Below are positions 6,186 through 58,113 of a stretch of 64,000 nt of DNA, piece by piece. This stretch comes from Anniella stebbinsi (lineage: Eukaryota; Chordata; Lepidosauria; Squamata; Anniellidae). The first letter of the stretch is position 1. Every line of letters begins with the position of its first letter. Position numbers and translations under genes: made by a program. A model generated the notes under the pieces. That model saw only the letters and a list, made by a program, of their open reading frames with translations, made no database searches and was not told where the DNA came from. The stretch is from assembly GCA_029215795.1 (NCBI GenBank), contig JARDYH010000003.1, positions 95,140,609 to 95,204,608 of the forward strand, in the 5' to 3' direction.

Positions 6186-7050
6186 TCTTTTGGAGCGGGT
6201 TGCAAGCAATATAGCTTGTCTGATTTGAATTTCCTTTTTCTTTTGAGTTCAGAAACAGTGAAGTAAAGGGCAAATCAAACAATGAAAGGGTTGGATCATC
6301 TTCCCCATGAATAAGGCTAAAGGAGGTGGTATTTATTGGAAGTATCTAGTACTGCCACCATCCTTCTGCTTGTTCTGTTGTTCCAGTGGGACCCACTGCT
6401 AGCAAAATGGGAAGTTAGTGCTGCTGAAAACAATCAGTAGAAATGCTAATTTCCAGATTGGGACTGGTCAGTGGATCTCCCTTCTGTGAACTCCGATGAC
6501 CTGCCACACCTCCAAAATAAGTGTTTCCAGTTGATTTAAGAACCGCTAGCTTCCTGTTGTGCTACCTCTGGATTCTACGGAGATGCGAGCAGCATAGGAT
6601 ACAGCCCTGGGTATGGATATAAGAATAGAGTAATTGCCTTGCTAAATATGCCCAAGGTCGATCATATTCAACATCCTGATTGCAAAGCTCAGACTTCATC
6701 CATGAAACTGAGCACAATTTCGGGAGGAGAGTAGGGCTGAAATGAGAGGGTGGCCTCTTGGGGGCAAACTGGTTTGCCAGTTTGGATGGGGAGACCTGCC
6801 TCGTTCGCAGCAGTGGTAGCAATCTACAGGTAAGAAGGTAAGACCTTATTTTCTTTTAAAAGCTGCAAATTTTAAAAGGAGAGAGGGTCCTCTCCCCTCC
6901 AATTCCCTTTTGGTGTTCTAATGAAAGCTTCAGCTGCTGGAGCTCTTGCTCCAACTACCATCATTTCCTCCCAGTTCCAGCATCCCTATTTCATGTAGTT
7001 CACTGGTTGTAGCCATGGTTCGCTATGAACAAGTCAACTGTGATGAAAAA
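6186..7050. other. No gene seen
   Basis: Unique-looking sequence with no recognised repeat family or coding frame. Confidence 0.4.
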
Positions 7051-7054
7051 AAGA

Positions 7055-7282
7055 TCACATTGCAGCATGATTGTTAGAGTGTTGGACTGGGAGTCAGGAG
7101 ATCCAAGTTGTAGCCCCCACTCAGCCATGGAAGCTCACTGGGTGACTTTGGGCCAGTACCAGACTGGGTTGTTGTTGTAAGGATAAAATGGAGCGAAGGA
7201 GGATTGTGTAAGTCACCTTGAGTTCCTTAAGCAGGAAAGAAGGTGGGATATAAATGAAATAAATAAATGGATAAAAATAATA
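7055..7282 (+). mobile_element. Sauria-type SINE
   Basis: A tRNA-related head (ttgttagagtgttggactgg, then a degenerate B box) is followed by the conserved 'gctcactgggtgactttggg' body and 'ggataaaatggag' block. The tail is a 'gtgggatataaatg' region ending in AAATA repeats. This matches the squamate Sauria SINE, whose 3' tail is Bov-B-like. It is the best taxonomic marker in the window. Confidence 0.9.
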
Positions 7283-7379
7283 ATCCAACCAATTCTGAGT
7301 TTGGGATGAGAAGCACCAAATTTACCTTAGTCCTACAGATGGATGGATCTCTTAATTTTGGTTTCTCTCAATTTTCCAT

Positions 7380-14694: not shown

Positions 14695-15690
14695 TCTTAT
14701 CTGAAGGGTGACATGAGAGTTTATGATGTTTATCAGATAACCAGTCAGCATGAGCTGATGGAAAACGCCGCTCCTCTGCCTAGCATTGGGGAGGATTTGC
14801 CCCTGCTCCAGGGAATGACGCAGGAATGAGGACACATGTTTGTGCAGACCTGCATCCTGCTGTGGGGAAAGTTGGCTGGAGCAAGAGCCACCCCCACTGG
14901 GCCATGCTCTGTGTTCACATGACACACAGAGCATGGGTAATTATGTTAGTGAAGGGAATGTGCATGTCACATGCAGGGGCAGGGGGGGAGAAGCCACAAT
15001 GGCAGCTTTCCCCCCTGTGATTATCCAAACCATGTCAGTGTGGCACGAACTAGTCGCCCACTAGAGTGGCGGAGCTGGATTTATTTTTTGGTGTGCTCCA
15101 TTTGGCCAAAGGAACAACTCACTCACCCACTACACATAATCAGCAGCAAGGAGGGGGTGCTAATTTGGCTAATTGGCTAAATGTGTTGTGGACACAATTG
15201 GTGGGCACTGTGAGCATCGTGGGAGGGGAGAGATGCCATCTTGTTGAGAATCTTGATGCACCTGATGGGCCACTAACCAGCCTACCGCTCATTTCCATCT
15301 TGCTGAAAAGAGTAGTGGAAAATGATGGCCCTTGGCCTATGCAGGATTTTGCTCATTGATCACCAACAAGTGGTGATGGGCTGGAGCAATCATGCCCCTT
15401 GGGTCCACCCTCATGGTAGACAGGCAATGAAATGATCCATGGTGGATCTGGATCAATGACAGGTCAAGCCAATGCTCAGAACCACAGTGGTATCCCCAAC
15501 AAGGAAACCATTTCGATATTGGCTAAAGTCTCCTAACAGCTGCAGCATGCACTAAACCTGAGTAGTTTTGTGCCTTGTTGCAGATTCAAGTGGTTATGAA
15601 TAAAGTTATAGCTCTTTATGCTATATTATAGTCTGCTTTTGTCTGCTTTTGTCATTTCTGGTGATGGTGGTGGAAATCTACTTGTGTACA
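14695..15690. other. No gene seen
   Basis: Several short open frames overlap on both strands but none shows recognisable domains or codon-like constraint. I treat it as non-coding. Confidence 0.35.
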
Positions 15691-15698
15691 CTTCAAAC

Positions 15699-15965
15699 TA
15701 GGACTGTGCACAGCCCCCCCCCCCAATTCACCTTGGAGGTCATTTCGAAGCCTCTGAAAATGGCCATGACTCAGGGAGTTTTGGGGCTTGTCCACCTCGC
15801 TTTTACACCTAAATTGAAGCAAGGTTCGGCCCCCCTGAAGCAGGTCAGCCTTTGTGGGTTCCTGGGCCATAGACCATCGTTCCTTTCTCCTTCTGGCTTG
15901 CACTTCAGGAACAGGGAGCACCTAGGTGAGCAGAGGAGAAATAACTCTGTTTTCCAAGGCAAATT
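15699..15965 (+). mobile_element. Possible one-ended relic of the TAGGGNTGTGCAC family
   Basis: TAGGACTGTGCACAGCCCC at 15699 resembles the family terminus, but no matching right end or repeat of the flanking 8-mer cttcaaac was found downstream. It may be truncated or a chance match. Confidence 0.3.
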
Positions 15966-17001
15966 ATGACACGTTACACACTAGAGGTGCATAGTTAGGT
16001 TCTTACAAAGCTGGTGCCCATCACAAAGCGTATTAGTGCATCAGTGTCTTTCTGCATGTATATAATGAAGGGTGGTGTGGCAGAAATCAAAATGCCAAGG
16101 CAAACACTGTTTCTAGAGATATTATGCAGAAGCCAATGCTGTTGATTTCAATATTACTTACTTCCAAAGTAGTATTCGGCTCTGCATGTTAAATCAAATA
16201 CCAATAATATTCTCATTCATTTTCTTTCTCCCATCTCCTCCATTTCTTTTCTCCCTCTCCCCAACAAAGGGAAACATCTCAGAGCTGTTGCACAACCTAC
16301 AGTGCTATGCATGAGAGCAGGGTCATGTGGGGGGGGGGCAAAGGGGCCAGTTGGCCCGGGGCCCATGATTTTGAGGGGGCACTCCAACGAAGAGCCCACC
16401 TTGCGGAAACAACGCAGAAGCCATCTGTCATGAATACCACGGTCAGACTACAAGCTCCAGAGGACCAGGCCACATGCGGGGTAGAGATATATGTGCCTAA
16501 GTTGCGATGGTTGTCCTTACTGTGTTGTCCTTAATGATCAGTTTGAAATGGGGGGGCACACACTTCCCATCTGGCCTGGGCATATTACCAGCTCTGCACG
16601 GCCCAGCATGAGAGACATCGGGACTATCTGAGTTAGTGGATGCAATTGTGAGAAATTAGCAAAAGAACCCTGAAATGTGTGTGTATATGGCACATTAACA
16701 CACACACATAGACAGTCACACTCACATATATACACACAATTCTCACATCCATGTCCAAATTCCAAGTCTCTAAAGAGACCGCAAAAGGGTCGGCTTCCTT
16801 CCTTTCTATTTTATTTCCTGACATCACCAATCTTTGCCAAGACAGAAGAGGCTGATGAGAGGCAGCAGATGAAGCAAATGAAAACAGGCCAGCTCACAAG
16901 GCAACTACCCATGAAGTATTTTTTCAAGCGCTCTAAATGAAATCCATAACAGTTGCAAATGTGTTTGTAGGGTAACTGTGTTTATGTCATAATTTATGTT
17001 T
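15966..17001. other. No gene seen; CA-rich tract
   Basis: Unique-looking sequence with GT/CA-rich DNA at about 16674-16740 and a 10-base G run near 16329. The right edge is where the giant palindrome begins. Confidence 0.35.
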
Positions 17002-17741
17002 TCAATAATGCCATTGATATGAATTGCATGTTTCTTCTAAACTGGATTATAAACCATGGACAGCCACCATTGTAAGCCAGAAAAGGAAAGGGGGAAAAAA
17101 GTTTGGTTGTTGCATTTTTAATCAAATGTGACTCCAGGGGCTACGAACTAGAATGCCTTTTTTACATCTCATTCATTGTTAGAAAGAAACTATCTGAAAT
17201 CTGAAAGGAAGCATGCAAGGTTATATTGCATATTTTCAACACAAGCAGAATCTTTGCCATTGGATTTCACCAGGGACGGCAGGGAAAAAGAATGGGAGTA
17301 GAAAAAAAATGTATCATTTGGAAAAGGGTGCCCTTTGCAGCAAAATAATAAAATGTAAAGCCCTTTGGAAGCCTCCTAGATGGGAGATTACATACAAAGT
17401 TATGCATACAAAGTTATGAATGACTATTAGTAGTAGTTTTCAGTCCCCGCCTAGTCTGGAGTGTTACAGAAATGGAATATATCATTAGAATATTTATGAA
17501 CTTTGGAAAAATAGAAATATTATTATTGGAGCAGACAGTGTTAAGGGGAACCAGATTCTCTCCCCCCACCCCAGTTCATTTCTCTTTTCATAATACAAAA
17601 CATAATTATTTGCTGGGGTCTTTTGATAATATCTGTTTTTTCTATTCTATTCTATTCATTAGCTGTGTGTATGTATATTGAAGGAATAAGTTTAGTTTAA
17701 TGATAAATAAGGAATAGTTTAATGAGAAATAAGAATAAAGA

Positions 17742-17983
17742 GATCCAGTGTCATGTAATGGTTAGTACATTGGACTGGGAGTCAGGAGATCCGTGTTCTG
17801 GTCCCCACTTGGCTAAGAAAGCTCATTTAGTGACTTTGGGTCAGTGACAGATTCTCAGCCCAACCTACATCACAAGGCTGTTGTTGTGAGGATAAAATGG
17901 AGAGGAGGAGGATTGTGTACGCTGCCTTGAGTTCCTTAAGCAGGAAAAAAAGTGGTATCTAAATGTAATAAATAAAATAAATA
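17742..17983 (+). mobile_element. Sauria-type SINE
   Basis: The head 'tggactgggagtcaggagat', body 'ggataaaatggagaggagga' and tail 'aatgtaataaataaa' match the SINE at 7055. It lies in the left flank of the foldback element. Confidence 0.9.
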
Positions 17984-18069
17984 TGCTGAGAGTCTCAGTT
18001 TAAATCTCTGCATTTCAATCCATTTCCCCAAATGCCCAGTTTAGAATTGCATCCCAGTTGCATTCTGAC

Positions 18070-18077
18070 TAGGTTGT

Positions 18078-18108
<31 letters not shown>
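18070..18108. repeat. GTT/GCT trinucleotide repeat
   Basis: (GTT)n passes into (GCT)n. It is mirrored at about 21475-21512 in the right arm. Confidence 0.85.
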
Positions 18109-18109
<1 letters not shown>

Positions 18110-18142
18110 TTTTGGGTCTGCCTCTACAAGAGAGGTTTAAAG

Positions 18143-21100
18143 TAGGGATGTGCACTGACCCCCCGGATCGGATCGGATAGCGAGTCGGAATCGGACCTGG
18201 GGGGTCGGATCGGATCGGATTGGATCGGAGGATGGTCGGATCGGATCGGACCGGATGTCCGATCCGGATCGGACGCCATTTTGAATGCTTTTTCCCATAG
18301 CCAAGTATTGTTTTACAAAAACGCCTATAACTTTTTCATTTTTAAAGATAGAAGGATGAAACTTGGGCACATCATACACTGGTTAGGGATAGTTATCTGT
18401 GAGAAATTTCAGAATGATTGGTGCATGCGTTTTGTGGCAATTAATTGTTTAATAAATACACATAAATGCCTATAACTTTGTCATTTTTAAAGTTACAAAC
18501 ATGAAACTTTGCCACATTGTAGGTGGTACCTTGAGACCTATCTGTGAGAAATTTCAGAAACTTAGGTGCTTGCCTTGTGTGGCAATTAATTTTAGAAAAA
18601 TGGGTAGTAGTGGGGTAAATACATTTATGCCTCCCATTTTTTTATTTTTGAAGATACAAACAGGAAACTTGGGCACATTACAGGTACCACTTGCCTTGAT
18701 ATGTGTGTGAAATTTCAGAAACATTGGAGCTTGCCTTGTGTGGCAATTAATTTTTGAAACAATGAGGAAAGAAACACCTATAACTTTGTCATTTTTAAAG
18801 TTACACACATGAAACTTTGCCACATTGTAGGTGGTACCTTGGGACCTATGTGTGTGAAATTTCAGAAACATAGGTGCTTGCCTTGTGTGGCAATTAATTT
18901 TTTAATAAATACCCAGGAATGCCTATAACTTTGTCATTTGTAAAGTTACACACATGAAACTTTGCCACATTGTAGGCGGTACCTTGGGACCTATGTGTGT
19001 AAAATTTCAGAAACGTAGGTGCTTGTATTGTGTGGCAATTAATTTTTGAAACAATGAGGGATTCATTGGACAGCACTTGCCCATAGGGATTCATTGGACA
19101 ATACTTGCCCATAGGGATTCATTGGACAGTACTTTCCTATAGGAAATCATTGGAAAGCACTTGCCCATAGAAAATCATTGGAAAGCACTTGCCCATTGAG
19201 AAATACAGTTATGCCTCCCACTTTTTATTTTTGAAGATACAAACAGGAAACTTGGGCACATTGTAGACTGGTTAGGGATAGTTATCTGTGAGAAATTTCA
19301 GAAAGATTGGTGCATGCGTTTTGTGGCAATTAATTTTTTAATAAATACCCAGGAATGCCTATAACTTTGTCATTTTTAAAGTAACATACATGAAACTTTG
19401 CCACATTGTAGGAGGTACCTTGGGACCTATGTGTGTGAAATTTCAAAAACGTAGGTGCTTGCCTTGTATGGCAATTAATTTTAGAAAAATGGGTAGTAGT
19501 GGGGTAAATACATTTACGCCTCCCATTTTTTTAGTTTTAAAGATACAAACAGGAAACATGGGCACATTACAGGGAACACTTCACTTGATATGTGTGTAAA
19601 ATTTCAGAATGATAGGTCCAGGCATGTGGTGGCAAGGTGTCTGCACACACCACTTTGAAGACTGTAGAAAATTTCTCCCGTAACGATCCTAGCGAGAGAG
19701 AGTGATCCTAGGCTCAGCCGTTCTGCTTAAGTAAAAAGGGAAAGTATCAATCAAAGCAGACACGAGCCAAGTGCTACTTTGTTTCGCCTTTTGTAATGGA
19801 TACTACCTCAGTTGCAGCCAAGCGTGCAAGGATCAAAGAGATGAGAGAAAGTGTTTCCTTCTTCTTCCCGGGAGGCGGGAGGGTGCAATTGACAGACCCA
19901 GCCTCTGTGTTAAAAAGGTTAATAACTTTTAATCTAAAAAATTCGTAGCCACCAAATGCCTGGACCTATCATTCTGAAATTTTACACACATATCAAGTGA
20001 AGTGTTCCCTGTAATGTGCCCATGTTTCCTGTTTGTATCTTTAAAAATAAAAAAAATGGGAGGCGTAAATGTATTTACCCCACTACTACCCATTTTTCTA
20101 AAATTAATTGCCATACAAGGCAAGCACCTACGTTTTTGAAATTTTACACACATAGGTCCCAAGGTACCACCTACAATGTGGCAAAGTTTCATGTATGTAA
20201 CTTTAAAAATGACAAAGTTATAGGCATTCCTGGGTATTTATTAAAAAATTAATTGCCACAAAACGCATGCACCAATCTTTCTGAAATTTCTCACAGATAA
20301 CTATCCCTAACCAGTCTACAATGTGCCCAAGTTTCCTGTTTGTATCTTCAAAAATAAAAAAGTGGGAGGCATAACTGTATTTCTCAATGGGCAAGTGCTT
20401 TCCAATGATTTTCTATGGGCAAGTGCTTTCCAATGATTTCCTATAGGAAAGTACTGTCCAATGAATCCCTATGGGCAAGTACTGTCCAATGAATCCCTAT
20501 GGGCAAGTGCTGTCCAATGAATCCCTCATTGTTTCAAAAATTAATTGCCACACAATACAAGCACCTACGTTTCTGAAATTTTACACACGTAGGTCCCAAG
20601 GTACCGCCTACAATGTGGCAAAGTTTCATGTGTGTAACTTTACAAATGACAAAGTTATAGGCATTCCTGGGTATTTATTAAAAAATTAATTGCCACACAA
20701 GGCAAGCACCTATGTTTCTGAAATTTCACACACATAGGTCCCAAGGTACCACCTACAATGTGGCAAAGTTTCATGTGTGTAACTTTAAAAATGACAAAGT
20801 TATAGGTGTTTCTTTCCTCATTGTTTCAAAAATTAATTGCCACACAAGGCAAGCTCCAATGTTTCTGAACTTTCACACACATATCAAGGCAAGTGGTACC
20901 TGTAATGTGCCCAAGTTTCCTGTTTGTATCTTCAAAAATAAAAAAATGGGAGGCGTAAATGTATTTACCCCACTACTACCCATTTTTCTAAAATTAATTG
21001 CCACACAAGGCAAGCACCTAAGTTTCTGAAATTTCTCACAGATAGGTCTCAAGGTACCACCTACAATGTGGCAAAGTTTCATGTTTGTAACTTTAAAAAT

Positions 21101-21473
21101 GACAAAGTTATAGGCATTTATGGGTATTTATTAAACAATTAATTGCCACAAAACGCATGCACCAATCTTTCTGAAATTTCTCACAGATAACTATCCCTAA
21201 CCAGTGTATAATGTGCCCAAGTTTCATCCTTCTATCTTTAAAAATGAAAAAGTTATAGGCGTTTTTGTAAAACAATACTTGGCTATGGGAAAAAGCATTC
21301 AAAATGGCGTCCGATCCGGATCGGACATCCGGTCCGATCCGATCCGACCATCCTCCGATCCAATCCGATCCGATCCGACCCCCCAGGTCCGATTCCGACT
21401 CGCTATCCGATCCGATCCGGGGGGTCAGTGCACATCCCTACTTTAAACCTCTCTTGTAGAGGCAGACCCAAAA

Positions 21474-21505
<32 letters not shown>

Positions 21506-22803
21506 ACAACCTAGTCAGAATGCAACTGGGATGCAATTCTAAACTGGGCATTTGGGGAAATGGATTGAAATGCAGAGATTTAAACTGAGACTCTCAGCAT
21601 ATTTATTTTATTTATTACATTTAGATACCACTTTTTTTCCTGCTTAAGGAACTCAAGGCAGCGTACACAATCCTCCTCCTCTCCATTTTATCCTCACAAC
21701 AACAGCCTTGTGATGTAGGTTGGGCTGAGAATCTGTCACTGACCCAAAGTCACTAAATGAGCTTTCTTAGCCAAGTGGGGACCAGAACACGGATCTCCTG
21801 ACTCCCAGTCCAATGTACTAACCATTACATGACACTGGATCTCTTTATTCTTATTTCTCATTAAACTATTCCTTATTTATCATTAAACTAAACTTATTCC
21901 TTCAATATACATACACACAGCTAATGAATAGAATAGAATAGAAAAAACAGATATTATCAAAAGACCCCAGCAAATAATTATGTTTTGTATTATGAAAAGA
22001 GAAATGAACTGGGGTGGGGGGAGAGAATCTGGTTCCCCTTAACACTGTCTGCTCCAATAATAATATTTCTATTTTTCCAAAGTTCATAAATATTCTAATG
22101 ATATATTCCATTTCTGTAACACTCCAGACTAGGCGGGGACTGAAAACTACTACTAATAGTCATTCATAACTTTGTATGCATAACTTTGTATGTAATCTCC
22201 CATCTAGGAGGCTTCCAAAGGGCTTTACATTTTATTATTTTGCTGCAAAGGGCACCCTTTTCCAAATGATACATTTTTTTTCTACTCCCATTCTTTTTCC
22301 CTGCCGTCCCTGGTGAAATCCAATGGCAAAGATTCTGCTTGTGTTGAAAATATGCAATATAACCTTGCATGCTTCCTTTCAGATTTCAGATAGTTTCTTT
22401 CTAACAATGAATGAGATGTAAAAAAGGCATTCTAGTCCGTAGCCCCTGGAGTCACATTTGATTAAAAATGCAACAACCAAACTTTTTTCCCCCTTTCCTT
22501 TTCTGGCTTACAATGGTGGCTGTCCATGGTTTATAATCCAGTTTAGAAGAAACATGCAATTCATATCAATGGCATTATTGATATGAATTATCTTTAAAAA
22601 TGAAAAAGTTATAGGCGTTTTTGTAAAACAATACTTGGCTATGGGAAAAAGCATTCAAAATGGCGTCCGATCCGGATCGGACCTCGTCGGATCGGATCGG
22701 ATCGGATCGGAGGTTGATCGGATCGGATCGGATCGGATTTTCCCGATTTTGGGGCGGATCGGATTCGGATCGTGGATCGGATCCGATCCGATGCACACCC
22801 CTA
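18143..22803 (-). mobile_element. hAT-like foldback element carrying an inverted copy of its own flank
   Basis: The left end TAGGGATGTGCACTGACC and right end GATGCACACCCCTA are flanked by a perfect 8-bp duplication, GTTTAAAG (18135-18142 and 22804-22811). Its left end equals the right end of the copy at 52817-58105, so it is in the opposite orientation. Arms run (CGGAT)n, GCCATTTTGAATGC, then ~150-bp repeat units. Between the true ends, 21441-22581 is not transposon sequence: it is a reverse copy of the left flank 17002-18142. The right-end remnant resumes at about 22590. The loop at 19629-19952 resembles the centre of 52817-58105. Confidence 0.9.
21600..21841 (-). mobile_element. Sauria-type SINE, inverted duplicate
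   Basis: Mirror copy of the SINE at 17742-17983, generated by the inverted duplication rather than by a second retrotransposition. Confidence 0.9.
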
Positions 22804-22811
22804 GTTTAAAG

Positions 22812-23142
22812 CTCTTTCAAGGCGCTTTAAAAAATTTACCTCTACAAGAACGGAGCGCAAATCGGGCATAGAGGCGCGTTATCTCTCCGATTATGTGCAT
22901 TATCGAATGCACGTTAAATCGCGAGTTTTATTTTGCTCCGGCCGTTAAAGCGCATATTGCCTATGTGAACAAGCGCTTATGCGCATTAACTACTTGTAAA
23001 GCACATTTTGGTCATCCGTTAATGCGCTTCGCCGCCTCTCGCCGCCTCTTGTGCAGAGGTATTAGGTGTAAATGCGCTTCAGCGATTATGCGCATAATCG
23101 CCTAACCGGGCGCAAAAGCGAATCCTTGTAGAGGGGACCCTA
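22812..23142. repeat. CpG-rich patch of short inverted words, possible MITE
   Basis: Unusually many GCGC and CpG words for a lizard intergenic region, with repeated atgcgc/gcgcat, gcgcattaa and cgattatgcgcataatcg. 'cctctacaag' at 18121 (before the foldback element) and near 22839 faces 'cttgtagagg' near 23125. The right edge GGACCCTA, reverse-complemented, begins TAGGGTCC. It may be a young inverted-repeat element that was the target of the foldback insertion. The ends could not be closed by a duplication. Confidence 0.45.
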
Positions 23143-25357: not shown

Positions 25358-26127
25358 TAGGGGTGTGCACAGGAGGAAAAATCGTATCGGAATCGGAATC
25401 GGGACTCAGATTTTGCCCTGGATTGGATCGGACAATCAGAGGTTCCTCGGATCAGATCGGATCCAATTCCGATACGAAAATTGGACATCCGATTTTTGGA
25501 TTGGATGCCATTTTAGGTGTTTTCGCCATAGGCTTGCATTGGGGGAAAGAAAGCTTTTCCCCAATGCAAGCCTATGCGGAAAACATGGGGGCGGGTGAGT
25601 GGGGACCTAACTCCCCCCTCCCTGTCACTCCCCCCACTCACGTTCCTTACCTGCCAGGGCTGTCCGCTTCTGTCCGCTGCCACCCGCTGGTCCTTTCTAC
25701 TGAGATACAGGCTTCGTGGCCTGCCTCTCAGTAGAGCACCGGGTGATGATGTCACACAGTGCTCTACTGAGAGGCAGGCCACAAAGCCTGTTTCTCAGTA
25801 GAAGGGACCAGCGGGTGGCAGCGGACAGAAGCGGACGGCCCCGGCAGGTAAGAGGGAACCTGTCTCTCACTCCACCTCCCCCCCATGCTCCTTACCTGCC
25901 GTGGCAGTCGACGGCAGTGAGGAGGCAGCAGTTAAGGAGCATGAGTGGGGGGAGGGGGAAGGATGTCCTACCCTCCAATTTTTTCTGATCCAGACTGGGT
26001 CTCTTCGGATTGGATCAGATCAGATCGGATGGTCCAAATGATCGGGATTGGGATTGGATCATTTCACCTGGTTTCGCCCAGATCAGGTCTGGATCATGGA
26101 TCGGGCCCGATCCGCTGCACATCCCTA
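25358..26127. mobile_element. hAT-like foldback element (770 bp)
   Basis: Ends TAGGGGTGTGCACAGG and, reverse-complemented, TAGGGATGTGCAGCGG. A perfect 8-bp duplication, ATTTCAAT, lies at 25350-25357 and 26128-26135. Arms contain atcggaatcgg and gatcggat words and a GCCATTTT box near 25508. The core is a set of inverted copies of ctactgaga/tctcagtag around GGTGATGATGTCAC. CAGGTAAG donor-like strings sit at module edges on both strands (near 25649 and 25846). It appears intermediate in age between 11450-11892 and the GC-rich copies. Confidence 0.92.
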
Positions 26128-28257: not shown

Positions 28258-29340
28258 TAGGGATGTGCACTGGATTGGACCCGATCCACGATCCGAGTCC
28301 GGTCCAGTGGGAAATCGGATAAATTATCCGATTTCCGATCCCGCAGCTGGATCGGCCGATCCAATCCGAACCGGTCCGAAAAAGCTCCGAACCGGTTCGG
28401 CGGATCGGCGGATCGGCGGGCGCCCACTGGCGCCCACCGCCGCTTCCATTGGCGGGCGCCAGCGGGCGCCCGCCAATGAAAGTGGACAGCGGGGGGGGGG
28501 AGGAGGGGGGCACTTACCTTCTCGGCCCGGTGGCTCCCGTCCGGCGCCGGCGCCTACTACTACTAGCAGGCTCCGCGGCCTGCTCTAGGGTGGCGCGCCG
28601 GGTGATGTCATCACCCGGCGCGCTACTCTAGAGCAGGCCGCGGAGCCTGCTGGTAGTAGTAGGCGCCGGCGCCGGCCGGGAGCCACCGGGCCGGGAAGGT
28701 AAGGAGGGGGTGCGTGGAGGGGAGGAGGGGGCGCGCGGAGGGGGGAGGGGGGAGGGGGGCCCTTACCTGCCCGGCCCGGCGGCTCCCGTCCGGCGCCGGC
28801 GCCTACTACTACCAGCAGGCTCCGCGGCCTGCTCCAGGGTGGCGCGCCGGGTGATGTTATCACCCGGCGCGCTACTCGAGAGTAGGCCGCGGAGCCCGCT
28901 GGTAGTAGCCGCCGGCGCCGGACGGGCCGAGAAGGTAAGCAGTGGCGGGGAAGGGGGCTTACCCCCCCCCGGAGCCGTCCGCTTCTATCCGCTGGCGCCC
29001 GCGGGCGCCAGCGGATGGAAGCGGCCGGCCCCAGGGGGGGTAGGGAGCGCGGGGGAGGGGGTTTACCTGCCGGGGCCGTCCACAGCGGACGGCCCCGGGG
29101 GGGGAGGGAGTTAGGCCCCCCCTTACCCACCCGCCGCCATTTTTTCCTCATAGACTTGCATTGCAATGCAAGTCTATGGGGAAAAAAATGGCGGCCGATC
29201 CAAAAATGTACGATTTTTGGGTCGGGATCGGACTCGATCCGGTCCGGGGGGCCTCCGATTTTGTCCGAACCGGTCCGGGACAAAATTGGAGGTCCCGATC
29301 CGGGTCCCGATCCGATCCGGGGGGTCCGTGCACACCCCTA
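28258..29340 (+). mobile_element. GC-rich hAT-like foldback element (1,083 bp)
   Basis: Ends TAGGGATGTGCACTGG and GTCCGTGCACACCCCTA. A perfect 8-bp duplication, ATAAAAAT, lies at 28250-28257 and 29341-29348. Order: CGGAT-type arm, GC-rich stem, two large hairpin modules centred on TGATGTCATCA-type sites (28603 and 28852, spacing 249), then a hairpin whose tip is CATTGCAATG between GCCGCCATTTTT and AAAAATGGCGGC boxes. It ends in a second CGGAT-type arm. Module edges read GAAGGTAAG on both strands. CpG is not depleted, so the copy is young. The long proline/arginine-rich open frames inside are by-products of stop-poor GC-rich sequence. Confidence 0.95.
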
Positions 29341-38329: not shown

Positions 38330-39409
38330 TAGGGCTGTGCACGGACCCCCCGGATCGGATCGGGACCCGGATCGGGACCTCCAATTTTGTCCCGGACCGG
38401 TTCGGACAAAATCGGAGGCCCCCCGGACCGGATCGAGTCCGATCCCGACCCAAAAATCGTACATTTTTGGATCGGCCGCCATTTTTTTCCCCATAGACTT
38501 GCATTGCAATGCAAGTCTATGAGGAAAAAATGGCGGCGGGTGGGTAAGGGGGGCCTAACTCCCTCCCCCCCCGGGGCCGTCCGCTGTGGATGGCCCCGGC
38601 AGGTAAACCCCCTCCCCCGCGCTCCCTACCCCCCCTGGGGCCGGCCGCTTCCATCCGCTGGCGCCCGCGGGCGCCAGCGGATAGAAGCGGACGGCTCCGG
38701 GGGGGGTAAGCCCCCTTCCCCGCCACTGCTTACCTTCTCGGCCCGTCCGGCGCCGGCGGCTACTACCAGCGGGCTCCGCGGCCTACTCTCGAGTAGCGCG
38801 CCGGGTGATGACATCACCCGGCGCGCCACCCTGGAGCAGGCCGCGGAGCCTGCTGGGAGTAGTAGGCGCCGGCGCCGGACGGGAGCCGCCGGGCCGGGCA
38901 GGTAAGGGCCCCCCTCCCCCCTCCCCCCTCCGCGCGCCCCCTCCTCCCCTCCACGCACCCCCTCCTTACCTTCCCGGCCCGGCGGCTCCCGTCCGGCGCC
39001 GGCGCCTACTACTTCCAGCAGGCTCCGCGGCCTGCTCTAGAGTAGCGCGCCGGGTGATGACATCACCCGGCGCGCCACCCTAGAGCAGGCCGCGGAGCCT
39101 GCTAGTAGTAGTAGGCGCCAGCGCCGGACGGGAGCCACCGGGCCGAGAAGGTAAGTGCCCCCCTCCTCCCCCCCCCGCTGTCCACTTTCATCGGCGGGCG
39201 CCCGCTGGCGCCCGCCAATGGAAGCGGCGGTGGGCGCCAGTGGGCGCCCGCCGATCCGCCGATCCGCCGAACCGGTTCGGAGCTTTTTCGGACCGGTTCG
39301 GATTGGATCGGCCGATCCAGCTGCGGGATCGGAAATCGGATAATTTATCCGATTTCCCACTGGACCGGACTCGGATCGTGGATCGGGTCCGATCCAGTGC
39401 ACATCCCTA
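38330..39409 (-). mobile_element. GC-rich hAT-like foldback element (1,080 bp)
   Basis: Ends TAGGGCTGTGCACGGACC and GATCCAGTGCACATCCCTA, with a perfect 8-bp duplication, CTCAAAAG (38322-38329 and 39410-39417). It is nearly the reverse complement of 28258-29340 and the same size. The two hairpin modules are centred near 38806 and 39056, spacing 250. The same CATTGCAATG tip between GCCATTTTT boxes lies at about 38468-38535. It was inserted into a dispersed 'gcagcctgat' repeat whose halves flank it. Confidence 0.95.
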
Positions 39410-49600: not shown

Positions 49601-50473
49601 TAGGGATGTGCACTGGATCCGATCCAATCCGATCCACGATCCGAATCCGATCCAGAGGGAAATCGGACAAATTATCCGATTTCCGATCTCACAGCTGGAT
49701 CGGCCGATCCAATCCGAACCGATCCGAAAAGGTTCCGATCCAGTTCGGATGGATCGGCGGATCGGCGGGCGCCACATCACCTGGCGCGCCACTCTGGAGC
49801 AGGCCGCAAAGCCCGCTGGCAGTAGCAGCCGGCGCCGGACGGGAGCGGACATCCCTTTAAGGTAAGTAGGGGACGCGCGGAGGGGAGGAGGGGGTGCGCG
49901 GAGTGGCGTGCTTACCTTACAGGGACGTCCACTCCCGTCCGGCGCCGGCTGCTACTGCCAGCGGGCTTCGCGGCCTGCTCCAGGGTGGCGTGCCGGGTGA
50001 TGACATCACCTGGCGCGCCACTCTGGAGCAGGCTGCAAAGCCCGCTGGCAGTAGCAGCCGGCGCTGGATGGGAGCGGACATCCCTGTAAGGTAAGCAGGG
50101 GGTGGGGGGAGGGGGCTTACCCCCCCGGGGCCGTCCACTTCTATCCGCGGATCGAAGTGGACGGCCCCGGGGGCGTAGGGGAGGGGGCTTACCTGCCAGG
50201 GCCATCCACAGCAGACGGCCCCGGGGGGAGGGAGTTAGGCCCCCCTCACCCACCCGCCACCATTTTTTCCTCATAGACTTGCATTGCAATGCAAGTCTAT
50301 GGGGAAAAAAATGGCGGCCGATCCAAAAATTTCCGATTTTTGGATCGGGATCGGACTCGATCCGGTCCGGGGGGCCTCCGATTTTGTCCGATCCGATCTG
50401 TGACAAAATTGGAGGTCCCGATCTGGGTCCCGATCTGATCCGATCTGATCCGGGGGGTCCGTGCACACCCCTA
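49601..50473 (+). mobile_element. GC-rich hAT-like foldback element (873 bp)
   Basis: Ends TAGGGATGTGCACTGG and GTGCACACCCCTA. The 8-bp duplication ATTATTAT (49593-49600 and 50474-50481) is perfect but simple in composition. One and a half hairpin modules remain: the first starts mid-hairpin at about 49774, suggesting internal deletion, and the second is centred near 50000 (GTGATGACATCAC). The CATTGCAATG tip and ATGGCGGC box lie at about 50281-50320. Confidence 0.92.
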
Positions 50474-52808: not shown

Positions 52809-53003
52809 GTATAAACTAGGGGTGTGCATCGGATCGGATCCGATCCACGATCCGAATCCGATCCGACCCAAAATCGGGAAAATCCGATCCGATCCGATCC
52901 GGACAACCTCCGATCCGATCCGATCCGATCCGATGAGGTCCGATCCGGATCGGACGCCATTTTGAATGCTTTTTCCCATAGCCAAGTATTGTTTTACAAA
53001 AAC

Positions 53004-54010
53004 GCCTATAACTTTTTCATTTTTAAAGATAGAAGGATGAAACTTGGGCACATTGTAGACTGGTTAGGGGTAGTTATCTGTGAGAAATTTCAGAAAGATT
53101 GGTGCATGCATTTTGTGGCAATTAATTTTTTAATAAATACCCAGGAATGCCTATAACTTTGTCATTTTTAAAGTTACACACATGAAACTCTGCCACATTG
53201 TAGGGGGTACCTTGGGACCTATGTGTGTGAAATTTCAGAAACGTAGGTGCTTGTCTTGTGTGGCAATTAATTTTTAGAAAAATGGGTAGTAGTGGGGTAA
53301 ATACAGTTACGCCTCCCATTTTTTATTTTTGAAGATACAAACAGGAAACTTGGGCACATTACAGGTACCACTTGCTTTGATATGTGTGTGAAATTTCAGA
53401 AACATTGGAGCTTTCCTTGTGTGGCAATTAATTTTTGAAACAATGAGGAAAGAAACACCTATAACTTTGTCATTTTTAAAGTTACACACATGAAACTTTG
53501 CCACATTGTAGGTGGTACCTTGGGACCCATGTGTGTGAAATTTCGGAAACGTAGGTGCTTGCCTTGTGTGGCAATTAATTTTTTAATAAATACCCAGGAA
53601 TGCCTATAACTTTGTCATTTTTAAAGTTACACACATGAAACTTTGCCACATTGTAGGCGGTACCTTTGGACCTATGTGTGTGAAATTTCGGAAACGTAGG
53701 TGCTTGCCTTGTGTGGCAATTAATTTTAGAAAAATGGGTAGTGGTGGGGTAAATACAGTTACGCCTCCCACTTTTTTATTTTTGAAGATACAAACAGGAA
53801 ACATGGGCACATTACAGGTATCACTTGGCTTGATATGTGTGTAAAATTTCAGACAGCTGGGTCCAGGCATGTGGTGGCAAGGTATTTTTGAAACAATGAG
53901 GAAAGAAACGCCTATAACTTTTTTATTTTAAAAGTTAGAAGTCTGAACATTGCTCACTTTGTAGATGGGTTAGGGGTAGATATGTGTCAGAAATTTCAGA
54001 ATTATAGGTC
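53004..54010. repeat. Tandem units of 145-162 bp in the left arm
   Basis: Unit starts lie near 53004, 53150, 53312, 53458, 53603, 53764 and 53911. Each unit holds a 'gcctataact' or 'gcctcccatt' start, a 'gaaact' block, 'gtgtgaaatttcagaa' and a 'ggcaattaattttt' end. Mirror images lie in 56940-57925 and in both arms of 18143-22803. Confidence 0.85.
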
Positions 54011-54346
54011 CAGGCATTTGATGGCTATGGAATTTTTAAATTACATGTTTCAAAAAAATTTCTACAGAGGCCAGGTCTTCCCCTCCCGCTTCCCGCGAAG
54101 AAAAGGAAACACTCTCTCGTCTCGATCCCTTTGATCCTTGCTAGTAGTATCCATTACAGGGCTCCTGTTTCCTTTCCTACTTTCACTTTTCAAGCAGAAC
54201 GGCTGAGCCTAGCTGAGTTTTGCAGCCATGCGTGCAAGGAAGGATCACTCTGGTCTCGATCCCTTTGATCCATGGTAGTATCCATTACAGGGCTCGTGTC
54301 TGCTTGAGTACAAAGTGAAAGCAGACACGAGCCCTGTAATGGATAC

Positions 54347-56648
54347 TAGGGATGTGCACTGGATCGGACCTGATCCACGATCCGAGTCCGGTCCAGTGGG
54401 AAATCGGATAAATTATCCGATTTCCGATCCCGCAGCTGGATCGGCCGATCCAATCCGAACCGGTCCGAAAAAGCTCCGAACCGGTTCGGCGGATCGGCGG
54501 ATCGGCGGGCGCCCACTGGCGCCCACCGCCGCTTCCATTGGCGGGCGCCAGCGGGCGCCCGCCGATGAAAGTGGACAGCGGGGGGGGGAGGAGGGGGGCA
54601 CTTACCTTCTCGGCCCGGTGGCTCCCGTCCGGCGCCGGCGCCTACTACTACTAGCAGGCTCCGCGGCCTGCTCTAGGGTGGCGCGCCGGGTGATGTCATC
54701 ACCCAGCGCGCTACTCTAGAGCAGGCCGCGGAGCCTGCTGGTAGTAGTAGGCACCGGCGCCGGACGGGAGCCACCGGGCCGGGAAGGTAAGGAGGGGGTG
54801 CGTGGAGGGGAGGAGGGGGCGCGCGGAGGGGGGAGGGGGGCCCTTACCTTTCCGGCCCGGCGGCTCCCGTCCGGCGCCGGCGCCTACTACTCCCAGCAGG
54901 CTCCGCGGCCTGCTCTAGGATGGTGCGCCGGGTGATGTCATCACCCGGCGCGCTACTCTAGAGCAGGCCGCGGAGCCTGCTGGAAGTAGTAGGCGCCGGC
55001 GCCGGACGGGAGCCGCCGGGCCGGAAAGGTAAGGAGGGGGTGCGTGGAGGGGAGGAGGGGGCGCGCGGAGGGGGGAGGGGGGCCCTTACCTTTCCGGCCC
55101 GGCGGCTCCCGTCCGGCGCCGGCGCCTACTACTCCCAGCAGGCTCCGCGGCCTGCTCTAGGATGGCGCGCCGGGTGATGTCATCACCCGGCGCGCTACTC
55201 TAGAGCAGGCCGCGGAGCCTGCTGGAAGTAGTAGGCGCCGGCGCCGGACGGGAGCCGCCGGGCCGGAAAGGTAAGGAGGGGGTGCGTGGAGGGGAGGAGG
55301 GGGCGCGCGGAGGGGGGAGGGGGGAGGGGGGAGGGGGGCCCTTACCTGCCCGGCCCGGCGGCTCCCGTCCGGCGCCGGCGCCTACTACTACCAGCAGGCT
55401 CCGCGGCCTGCTCTAGGATGGCGCGCCGGGTGATGTCATCACCCGGCGCGCTACTCTAGAGCAGGCCGCGGAGCCTGCTGGAAGTAGTAGGCGCCGGCGC
55501 CGGACGGGAGCCGCCGGGCGGAAAGGTAAGGAGGGGGTGCGTGGAGGGGAGGAGGGGGCGCGCGGAGGGGGGAGGGGGGCCCTTACCTTTCCGGCCCGGC
55601 GGCTCCCGTCCGGCGCCGGCGCCTACTACTCCCAGCAGGCTCCGCGGCCTGCTCTAGGATGGCGCGCCGGGTGATGTCATCACCCGGCGCGCTACTCTAG
55701 AGCAGGCCGCGGAGCCTGCTGGAAGTAGTAGGCGCCGGCGCCGGACGGGAGCCGCCGGGCCGGAAAGGTAAGGAGGGGGTGCGTGGAGGGGAGGAGGGGG
55801 CGCGCGGAGGGGGGAGGGGGGCCCTTACCTTTCCGGCCCGGCGGCTCCCGTCCGGCGCCGGCGCCTACTACTCCCAGCAGGCTCCGCGGCCTGCTCTAGG
55901 ATGGCGCGTCGGGTGATGTCATCACCCGGCGCGCTACTCTAGAGTAGGCCGCGGAGCCTGCTGGAAGTAGTAGGCGCCGGCGCCGGACGGGAGCCGCCGG
56001 GCCGGAAAGGTAAGGAGGGGGTGCGTGGAGGGGAGGAGGGGGCGCGCGGAGGGGGGAGGGGGGAGGGGGGCCCTTACCTGCCCGGCCCGGCGGCTCCCGT
56101 CCGGCGCCGGCGCCTACTACTACCAGCAGGCTCCGCGGCCTGCTCCAGGGTGGCGCGCCGGGTGATGTCATCACCCGGCGCGCTACTCGAGAGTAGGCCG
56201 CGGAGCCCGCTGGTAGTAGCCGCCGGCGCCGGACGGGCCGAGAAGGTAAGTGGCGGGGAAGGGGGCTTACCCCCCCCCGGAGCCGTCCGCTTCTATCCGC
56301 TGGCGCCCGCGGGCGCCAGCGGATGGAAGCGGGCGGCCCCAGGGGGGGTAGGGAGCGCGGGGGAGGGGGTTTACCTGCCGGGGCCGTCCACAGCGGACGG
56401 CCCCGGGGGGGGGAGGGAGTTAGGCCCCCCTTACCCACCCGCCGCCATTTTTTCCTCATAGACTTGCATTGCAATGCAAGTCTATGGGGAAAAAAATGGC
56501 GGCCGATCCAAAAATGTACGATTTTTGGGTCGGGATCGGACTCGATCCGGTCCGGGGGGCCTCCGATTTTGTCCGAACCGGTCCGGGACAAAATTGGAGG
56601 TCCCGATCCGGGTCCCGATCCGATCCGGGGGGTCCGTGCACACCCCTA
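54347..56648 (+). mobile_element. GC-rich hAT-like foldback element with amplified hairpin array (2,302 bp)
   Basis: Ends TAGGGATGTGCACTGG and GTGCACACCCCTA, with a perfect 8-bp duplication, ATGGATAC (54339-54346 and 56649-56656). It is the same subfamily and orientation as 28258-29340, but has seven hairpin modules in place of two. The open frames of over 200 codons inside follow from stop-poor GC-rich palindromes and mirror those in the 28258 copy. It inserted into the centre of 52817-58105 and is therefore younger than it. Confidence 0.96.
54600..56250. repeat. Tandem array of seven palindromic modules
   Basis: Centres (TGATGTCATCA) start at 54691, 54933, 55175, 55431, 55672, 55914 and 56163, giving spacings of 242, 242, 256, 241, 242 and 249. 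Each unit is itself a hairpin: ggcgccggcgcctactact and its complement surround ctgctctag/ctagagcag stems. Units are separated by a G-rich linker between GGTAAGG and CCTTACC. The near identity of units points to recent amplification. Confidence 0.92.
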
Positions 56649-58113
56649 ATGGATACTACCAAGGATCAAAGGGATCGAGACCAGAGTGATCCTTCCTTGC
56701 ACGCATGGCTGCAAAACTCAGCTAGGCTCAGCCGTTCTGCTTGAAAAGTGAAAGTAGGAAAGGAAACAGGAGCCCTGTAATGGATACTACTAGCAAGGAT
56801 CAAAGGGATCGAGACGAGAGAGTGTTTCCTTTTCTTCGCGGGAAGCGGGAGGGGAAGACCTGGCCTCTGTAGAAATTTTTTTGAAACATGTAATTTAAAA
56901 ATTCCATAGCCATCAAATGCCTGGACCTATAATTCTGAAATTTCTGACACATATCTACCCCTAACCCATCTACAAAGTGAGCAATGTTCAGACTTCTAAC
57001 TTTTAAAATAAAAAAGTTATAGGCGTTTCTTTCCTCATTGTTTCAAAAATACCTTGCCACCACATGCCTGGACCCAGCTGTCTGAAATTTTACACACATA
57101 TCAAGCCAAGTGGTACCTGTAATGTGCCCATGTTTCCTGTTTGTATCTTCAAAAATAAAAAAGTGGGAGGCGTAACTGTATTTACCCCACCACTACCCAT
57201 TTTTCTAAAATTAATTGCCACACAAGGCAAGCACCTACATTTCCGAAATTTCACACACATAGGTCCAAAGGTACCGCCTACAATGTGGCAAAGTTTCATG
57301 TGTGTAACTTTAAAAATGACAAAGTTATAGGCATTCCTGGGTATTTATTAAAAAATTAATTGCCACACAAGGCAAGCACCTACGTTTCCGAAATTTCACA
57401 CACATGGGTCCCAAGGTACCACCTACAATGTGGCAAAGTTTCATGTGTGTAACTTTAAAAATGACAAAGTTATAGGTGTTTCTTTCCTCATTGTTTCAAA
57501 AATTAATTGCCACACAAGGAAAGCTCCAATGTTTCTGAAATTTCACACACATATCAAAGCAAGTGGTACCTGTAATGTGCCCAAGTTTCCTGTTTGTATC
57601 TTCAAAAATAAAAAATGGGAGGCGTAACTGTATTTACCCCACTACTACCCATTTTTCTAAAAATTAATTGCCACACAAGACAAGCACCTACGTTTCTGAA
57701 ATTTCACACACATAGGTCCCAAGGTACCCCCTACAATGTGGCAAAGTTTCATGTGTGTAACTTTAAAAATGACAAAGTTATAGGCATTCCTGGGTATTTA
57801 TTAAAAAATTAATTGCCACAAAATGCATGCACCAATCTTTCTGAAATTTCTCACAGATAACTACCCCTAACCAGTCTACAATGTGCCCAAGTTTCATCCT
57901 TCTATCTTTAAAAATGAAAAAGTTATAGGCGTTTTTGTAAAACAATACTTGGCTATGGGAAAAAGCATTCAAAATGGCGTCCGATCCGGATCGGACATCT
58001 GGTCCGATCCGATCCGACCAGCCTCCGATCCGATCCGATCCGACCCCCCAGGTCCGAATCCGATCCGCTATCCGATCCGATCCGGGGGGTCAGTGCACAT
58101 CCCTAGTATAAAC

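Follow-up and report, generated by a model that had tools for sequence, protein, structure and literature searches.

Several described systems join transposons or inverted repeats to copied DNA, and in this work we compare with them a foldback transposon, TE1, in a 64-kb stretch of DNA from Anniella stebbinsi (assembly GCA_029215795.1, contig JARDYH010000003.1, positions 95,140,609 to 95,204,608), hereafter the window. Transposons with terminal inverted repeats (TIRs) that carry host DNA, the Pack-TIRs, were surveyed in 100 animal genomes and numbered 370, of which 208 were hAT (Tan et al. 2021, PMC8277862). Unique cases numbered 281; in 160 of these the parent copy was no more than 15 kb away, in 190 a breakpoint showed microhomology, and the authors favour the filling of internal breaks after insertion. 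Their survey excluded parental copies with transposable elements (TEs) in the flanking 100 bp, and the authors note that cases of an end-bypass model, in which the parent is linked to a TE, may be missed. In the human duplication-inverted triplication-duplication rearrangements (DUP-TRP/INV-DUP), the first junction lies inside inverted low-copy repeats and is made by homology, and the second shows microhomology, end joining or templated insertions (PMC4352052). A general model of inverted copy-number variants describes related switching (PMC10766186). Gap-repair template switching has also been named as a source of defective copies of the transposon Galileo (PMC2775673, PMC4168063). TE1 holds, inside its own right arm, an inverted copy of the host DNA that borders its left end.

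TE1 is 4,661 bp long (18143-22803). The 8-bp target-site duplication (TSD) GTTTAAAG was found base-exact directly outside both of its termini, which agrees with the single insertion marked in a preliminary description of this DNA. Immediately inside the TSDs the termini begin with TAGGGATGTGCA and TAGGGGTGTGCA and read TAGGGATGTGCACTGACC and TAGGGGTGTGCATCGG. The arms are inverted, about 1.5 kb long and built with internal tandem repeats of ~145 bp, and TE1 is on these grounds a foldback element. The features referred to below are the following.

17002-18142, + strand: left host flank, the template (parent copy), containing a stretch like a short interspersed element (SINE); 1 difference in 1,141 to the reverse complement of 21441-22581
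18135-18142, + strand: left TSD, directly outside the left end
18143-19635, + strand: left foldback arm, which has the ~145-bp internal repeats, together with the L-type left end at about 18143-18253
19636-19945, no strand: spacer between the arms; arm similarity is lost at about 19636/19945
19946-21232, - strand: inner part of the original right arm, ending at the break point, from the arm comparison
21233-22588, no strand: 1,356 bp inserted secondarily into the right arm, where the arm of TE2 is unbroken; its parts are an outer left-arm copy (21233-21440), the inverted TSD with the flank (21441-22581) and filler (22582-22588)
21429-21440, - strand: internal extra copy of the L-type terminus
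21441-22581, - strand: inverted copy of the left flank, starting with the inverted TSD CTTTAAAC
22582-22589, + strand: filler TATGAAT(T), 7-8 nt, its final T common to the right arm
22589-22803, - strand: original outer right arm and R-type end; 4 mismatches in 215 against the matching end of TE2
22804-22811, + strand: right TSD, directly outside the right end
52817-58105, - strand: TE2, a second foldback element with TSD GTATAAAC and the same L and R ends, its arm uninterrupted at the break site and without flank capture

When the window was compared with itself by BLAST, 17002-19633 proved to be the reverse complement of 19948-22581 (2,634 aligned, 99.4%). Within this match, the single difference between the flank and its copy is an A at 17146 against a G at 22437, so that the reverse copy reported in the preliminary description is borne out. 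An inverted match of 1.1 kb at 99.9% identity is far beyond chance. The DNA farther to the left, 15001-17001, has no copy inside the element according to BLAST, and no 25-mer of the flank is present more than 2 times in the window, which leaves two copies of the flank only. The preliminary description had also proposed that the differences between the two arms be counted. The long alignment of arm and flank holds 41 differences; 25 of them, from 19636 on, belong to the spacer and were excluded, leaving the one in the flank and 15 between the right and left arms over 18373-19634 (13 substitutions and 2 one-base indels). Divergences of the inner arms from an alignment that included the misaligned spacer were not used.

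The SINE-like stretch, at about 17743-17990 with bounds drawn by eye, is present in both copies of the flank. Self-BLAST found a relative elsewhere in the window that is 75% alike (7082-7267 against 17770-17976). Together, 7041-7300 and 17736-18000 are two SINE-like copies about 75% alike, with tRNA-like heads and AT-rich AATAAATAAA tails. Rfam gave 0 matches anywhere in the window. The preliminary description had also placed such a stretch in the copied flank and called it a Sauria SINE, a name that we use tentatively. Such a stretch would point to a lizard or snake as the host.

The second foldback element, TE2, lies in the opposite orientation to TE1 (self-BLAST) and offers an unbroken comparison. 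The L-type and R-type ends are distinct from each other, roughly 110 bp each, and match across the two elements. The 20 bases upstream of 21233 in TE1 are identical to TE2 at 20 of 20 positions, and the TE2 arm then runs on as TATCTTTAAAAATG. This continuation occurs twice in TE1, at 21233, in the left-arm copy, and at 22589, in the original arm, from where the R end and outer arm agree with TE2 at 211 of 215 positions. Because TE1 matches the unbroken arm of TE2 on either side, 21233-22588 is a clean insertion with no base lost. Furthermore, 22589-22682 repeats 21233-21326 exactly, an identical run of 94 bp, so 94 bp of arm are present three times. Since the left and right arms are identical over 21211-21326, copying could have started anywhere there. 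The preliminary description had the left arm as the template with a run of 1,141 bases into the flank; the length stands, and the start is moved from the end of the element to within the right arm.

The inverted copy contains the junction of TE1's left end with the left flank. This junction arose only once the element sat at its present site, which supports the view that the flank copy was made after the transposon had inserted. The age of the copied tract agrees with this order: 17002-18372 shows 1 difference in 1,371 positions, whereas the remaining arms, 18373-19634, show 13 substitutions in 1,262 (Fisher p 6e-4 for substitutions, 2e-4 with the 2 indels, and 2e-3 for the flank alone against the arms). 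Copying is therefore younger than the last homogenisation of the arms. The same order had been claimed in the preliminary description. A copy carried in by transposition was ruled out because it holds the junction to the present site, and two nested elements were ruled out because the right arm continues in register and no matching TSD flanks the insert.

The two junctions of the insertion differ in kind. Entry took place within the arms, which share 99% identity. At its exit the copied strand has the terminal sequence ...AATTCATATCAATGGCATTATTGA, after which come TATGAATT and then the right-arm sequence ATCTTTAAAA. The return junction is at 22589, after 7-8 nt of filler, and not near 22582, where the preliminary description had put the switch back to the right arm. 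The last five bases of the copied strand, ATTGA, can pair with TCAAT six bases away, and the 8 nt that follow are an exact snap-back extension. In a control with random 7-nt fillers placed behind random 81-nt ends taken from 16001-18142, a 7-nt templated extension appeared in 3 of 20,000 trials. The extended hairpin is predicted to fold at -9.7 kcal/mol (z -3.7), and 2 of 200 shuffles were as good. Templated fillers of this snap-back kind are typical of polymerase-theta end joining.

These observations are explained, with fair probability in our judgement, by abortive homology-directed gap repair of a break in the right arm through the left arm, closed by end joining of the polymerase-theta type. 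A non-autonomous hAT-like foldback element would have landed at 18142/22804. At a later time a break or a stalled fork would have interrupted the right arm 215 bp short of the right end, at the present 21232/22589. The inner 3' end would have annealed to the inverted left arm, with which the right arm shares 99% identity over about 1.26 kb, and been extended there, copying the outer 208 bp of the left arm, then the left end, the TSD and 1,141 bases of flank. Copying would have run into the flank because the left arm ends where host DNA begins. The new strand would then have been released, its final ATTGA folding back on TCAAT for a self-templated extension by 8 nt, and end joining over 1 nt of common sequence would have linked the extended strand to the still open right side of the break. 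Here we infer a break rather than a stalled fork, as well as the direction of synthesis and the polymerase. Pairing of the arms, with a switch from the right arm to the left and back, had been offered in the preliminary description and is still the simplest fit, with the place of entry and the place of return corrected and the snap-back filler added.

Arm-to-arm copying is also suggested by the sites at which the four arms of TE1 and TE2 differ. Over the arms, 36 of 861 ungapped columns separate the two elements and 0 separate left from right, whereas over the outer ends 27 of 102 ungapped columns separate left from right and 0 separate the elements (Fisher p 2e-18 for ends against arms). Gapped columns, and columns from about 1125 on, where TE1 and TE2 differ in build, were excluded. 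Because both end types are common to both elements, homogenisation of the arms has probably occurred in one or both of the elements since TE1 and TE2 parted. This likeness within an element is what would be expected if one arm were at times copied from the other, and it counts in favour of gap repair through the left arm, as support rather than proof. The pattern suggests that arm-to-arm copying is the usual event and that the overshoot past the end of the arm is the unusual step.

Several points weigh against this explanation. The site pattern comes from no more than two foldback elements, its columns do not represent independent events, and where the ends stop and the arm starts was decided with the alignment already in view. 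Before extension, the snap-back stem has only 5 bp, and the un-extended end is predicted to take another shape at -2 kcal/mol, with 124 of 200 shuffles folding as well; the lack of a predicted snap-back fold in the un-extended end therefore counts against a stable pre-formed hairpin. Finally, TE1 is a single case in one assembly.

A run of 116 bp (18257-18372) is identical in all four foldback arms and adjoins the variable ends, and the break in TE1 falls inside it. A break placed at the border of a specially conserved subterminal stretch became less likely in view of an inner run of 113 bp (18734-18846), which is nearly as long. A conversion of the right arm starting near 20351, read from a 2,231-nt match, was dropped, since arm differences are present from 18373 inwards.

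The alternative closest to gap repair is replicative template switching without a double-strand break, that is, fork stalling and template switching or microhomology-mediated break-induced replication (FoSTeS/MMBIR), in which a fork stalls in the palindrome, the nascent strand switches to the opposite arm on the same or the sister chromatid, copies arm and flank, and returns to its own template. The same junctions fit this process; a lossless return opposite the point of departure would be natural for a resuming fork, and the 94-bp direct repeat of 21233-21326 at 22589-22682 permits a small step back. No feature at TE1 separates fork switching from break repair, although a snap-back filler is more usual for end joining. 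Folding back of a 3' end has, for its part, been proposed for replicative small inverted triplications too (PMC13334657), and switching of this sort is published for inverted repeats (PMC4352052; PMC10766186). We regard fork switching as possible at TE1 but rather unlikely.

Near-perfect palindromes are classic artefacts, and a chimeric read or a palindromic read with a missed adapter could have entered the contig. Such a read would not lead back in register to a right end that belongs to the element and differs from the left one, followed by a matching TSD; moreover, the two flank copies differ at one base and the filler at the return is templated, so we hold an assembly or library artefact to be improbable. 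More improbable again is aberrant hAT transposition, in which excision left hairpins on the flank ends that were then opened away from their centre, or a hairpin of host DNA travelled along with the element. It has a published precedent in a Ds element that has vector DNA as a 598-bp inverted repeat by its 3' end, inside the TSD, for which such a model was given (PMC1978519). That repeat lies outside the terminus and came from a former donor site, whereas the copy in TE1 lies inside the right arm, came from the present site and was entered by seamless arm homology. The excision-hairpin model was rejected for TE1, as the inverted copy is in the wrong place. If, instead, the flank and left arm had been duplicated in inverted form before the element or its right end inserted, the TSD pair would not be expected to bracket the whole structure, nor the right arm to stay in register across the insertion, and both are seen; having found no supporting evidence for this order of events, we give it hardly any credence.

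Like a gap-filled Pack-TIR, TE1 is a TIR element that would have taken up host DNA from close by once it had inserted, through an internal break and without transposition, a process often accompanied by microhomology in the survey (PMC8277862). It keeps both termini and has, between two parts of one TIR element, non-TE filler in the range of 100-5,000 bp that the survey used. Entry into TE1 differs in that it used long arm-to-arm homology, and its filler consists of the flank that adjoins the element, in inverted form and together with the element's own terminus. The survey required 100 TE-free flanking base pairs around the parent, whereas the parent of the TE1 copy, 17002-18142, abuts TE1 itself, and the case would be removed by that filter because its parent adjoins a TE. 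TE1 thus works like a gap-filled Pack-TIR yet is no member by the definition given in that report. The two-junction logic of DUP-TRP/INV-DUP, with its two kinds of junction, is found in TE1 as well (PMC4352052; PMC10766186). The repeats of TE1, in contrast, are the two arms of one transposon and the scale is 1.4 kb; its flank is duplicated and not triplicated, there are no flanking duplications, and the return lies opposite the departure. Small inverted triplications show related switching, but the DUP/IN/DUP build described for them (PMC13334657) is not seen in TE1.

Among transposons, the Ds element mentioned above (Langer et al. 2007, PMC1978519) resembles TE1 in being of the Ac/Ds type and in having non-element DNA repeated in inverted form inside the TSD. 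Its repeat is placed between TIR and TSD half-site, outside the terminus, is of donor-site origin and is explained by a hairpin model tied to excision, whereas the copy in TE1 is inside the right arm. Galileo shares with TE1 long, internally repetitive inverted arms, which are said to form secondary structures, breaks and rearrangements, but it belongs to the P superfamily, has a 7-bp TSD in most copies, and the available text reports inversions and arm variation rather than capture of its own flank (PMC2775673, PMC4168063). In plant Mutator-like elements (MULEs) with multiple or extended long TIRs, acquired sequence can enter the extended TIRs (PMC3310237), which lessens the novelty of arm growth by capture. 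These elements differ from TE1 in superfamily and in their TSD of 9-11 bp, and the available text of that report gives no mechanism and does not mention an element's own flank.

Capture of an element's own flank through the opposite foldback arm was not found in the literature searched, which covered few subscription papers and is thus weak evidence of novelty. The statement in the preliminary description that such an event was not known to have been described may hold for this exact own-flank form, whereas the two-junction logic is already published for Pack-TIRs and DUP-TRP/INV-DUP. TE1 belongs to a known kind of repair, of which it is a well-preserved example, found in a setting that the animal Pack-TIR survey removed by its filter.

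TE1 has many relatives in the window. The end pattern TAGGGNTGTGCA occurs 19 times against 0.10 expected, one occurrence being the copied end at 21440, and a 27-base end pattern had 0 matches in the viral and prokaryote contigs scanned. Pairing of the ends yields 10 pairs, with a perfect 8-bp TSD in 7 and a TSD with one mismatch in 2; the remaining pair, 15699/21440, is spurious. It was rejected because the copied left end serves as its right end, and because its left end and its duplication each contain one mismatch. Long inverted arms that reach the ends are present in TE1 and TE2 only, 2 of the 7 elements with perfect TSDs, which are the following.

18143-22803: TE1
25358-26127
28258-29340
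38330-39409
49601-50473
52817-58105: TE2
54347-56648

All 7 perfect TSDs have the form nTnnnnAn (T at 2, A at 7), as do 8 of 9 when the one-mismatch pairs are included; the pair GAATAAAC/GAATAATC departs from it. The 8-bp TSDs are those of the hAT superfamily, and this form together with TAGGG-type ends is typical of Ac-type hAT elements. The family of TE1 thus appears from its sequence to be non-autonomous and hAT-like. TE1 has no open reading frame (ORF) above 105 aa, and the 10 ORFs scanned (8 in family members) of the 32 ORFs of >=110 aa in the window had no Pfam match, so that no transposase was found among them.

Other observations concern the spacer, the relatives and the right flank. 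The spacer of TE1 encodes a 50-aa ORF (MDTTSVAAKRARIKEMRESVSFFFPGGG..., 19796-19948), which might be a gene remnant. The related element at 54347-56648 sits in the middle of TE2 with the TSD ATGGATAC, and the spacer of TE1 has the same ATGGATAC site unoccupied at 19796-19803. This element carries about 7 copies of a GC-rich tandem repeat of ~242 bp (54586-56237). The family members at 28258-29340 and 38330-39409 are 98.8% alike, in opposite orientation and 9 kb apart, and have their own TSDs, ATAAAAAT and CTCAAAAG. Two more perfect family ends, at 2378 (- strand) and 63930 (+ strand), were without a partner inside the window. Just outside TE1 on the right, 22812-23120 looks by eye rich in short inverted motifs of the GCGC type and has no match elsewhere in the window (BLAST, E 1e-3); the word CCTCTACAAGA at 22839 recurs at 18121, just left of TE1.

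The locus is a readable record of one repair event, since the 64-kb window preserves the two junctions together with the template, the sequence of steps and a comparison copy that was not broken, and it links two literatures, that on the capture of host DNA by DNA transposons and that on rearrangement mediated by inverted repeats. The captured flank brings another mobile element, the SINE-like stretch, as cargo. It is tempting to extend this to long-armed foldback transposons in general, which would keep their arms alike by mutual copying while repair regularly overshoots the end of the template arm and turns host flank into cargo bounded by functional ends; as a general rule we think this quite unlikely, and put it forward as speculation. 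Such events would have a simple genome-wide signature, an element's own flank inverted inside one arm, a class that the animal Pack-TIR survey filtered out by design (PMC8277862). If the rule were true, that survey would be blind to overshoot, since parent copies beside a TE were discarded, and foldback elements would have in overshoot a permanent way of growing, acquiring new DNA and extending chromosomal palindromes.

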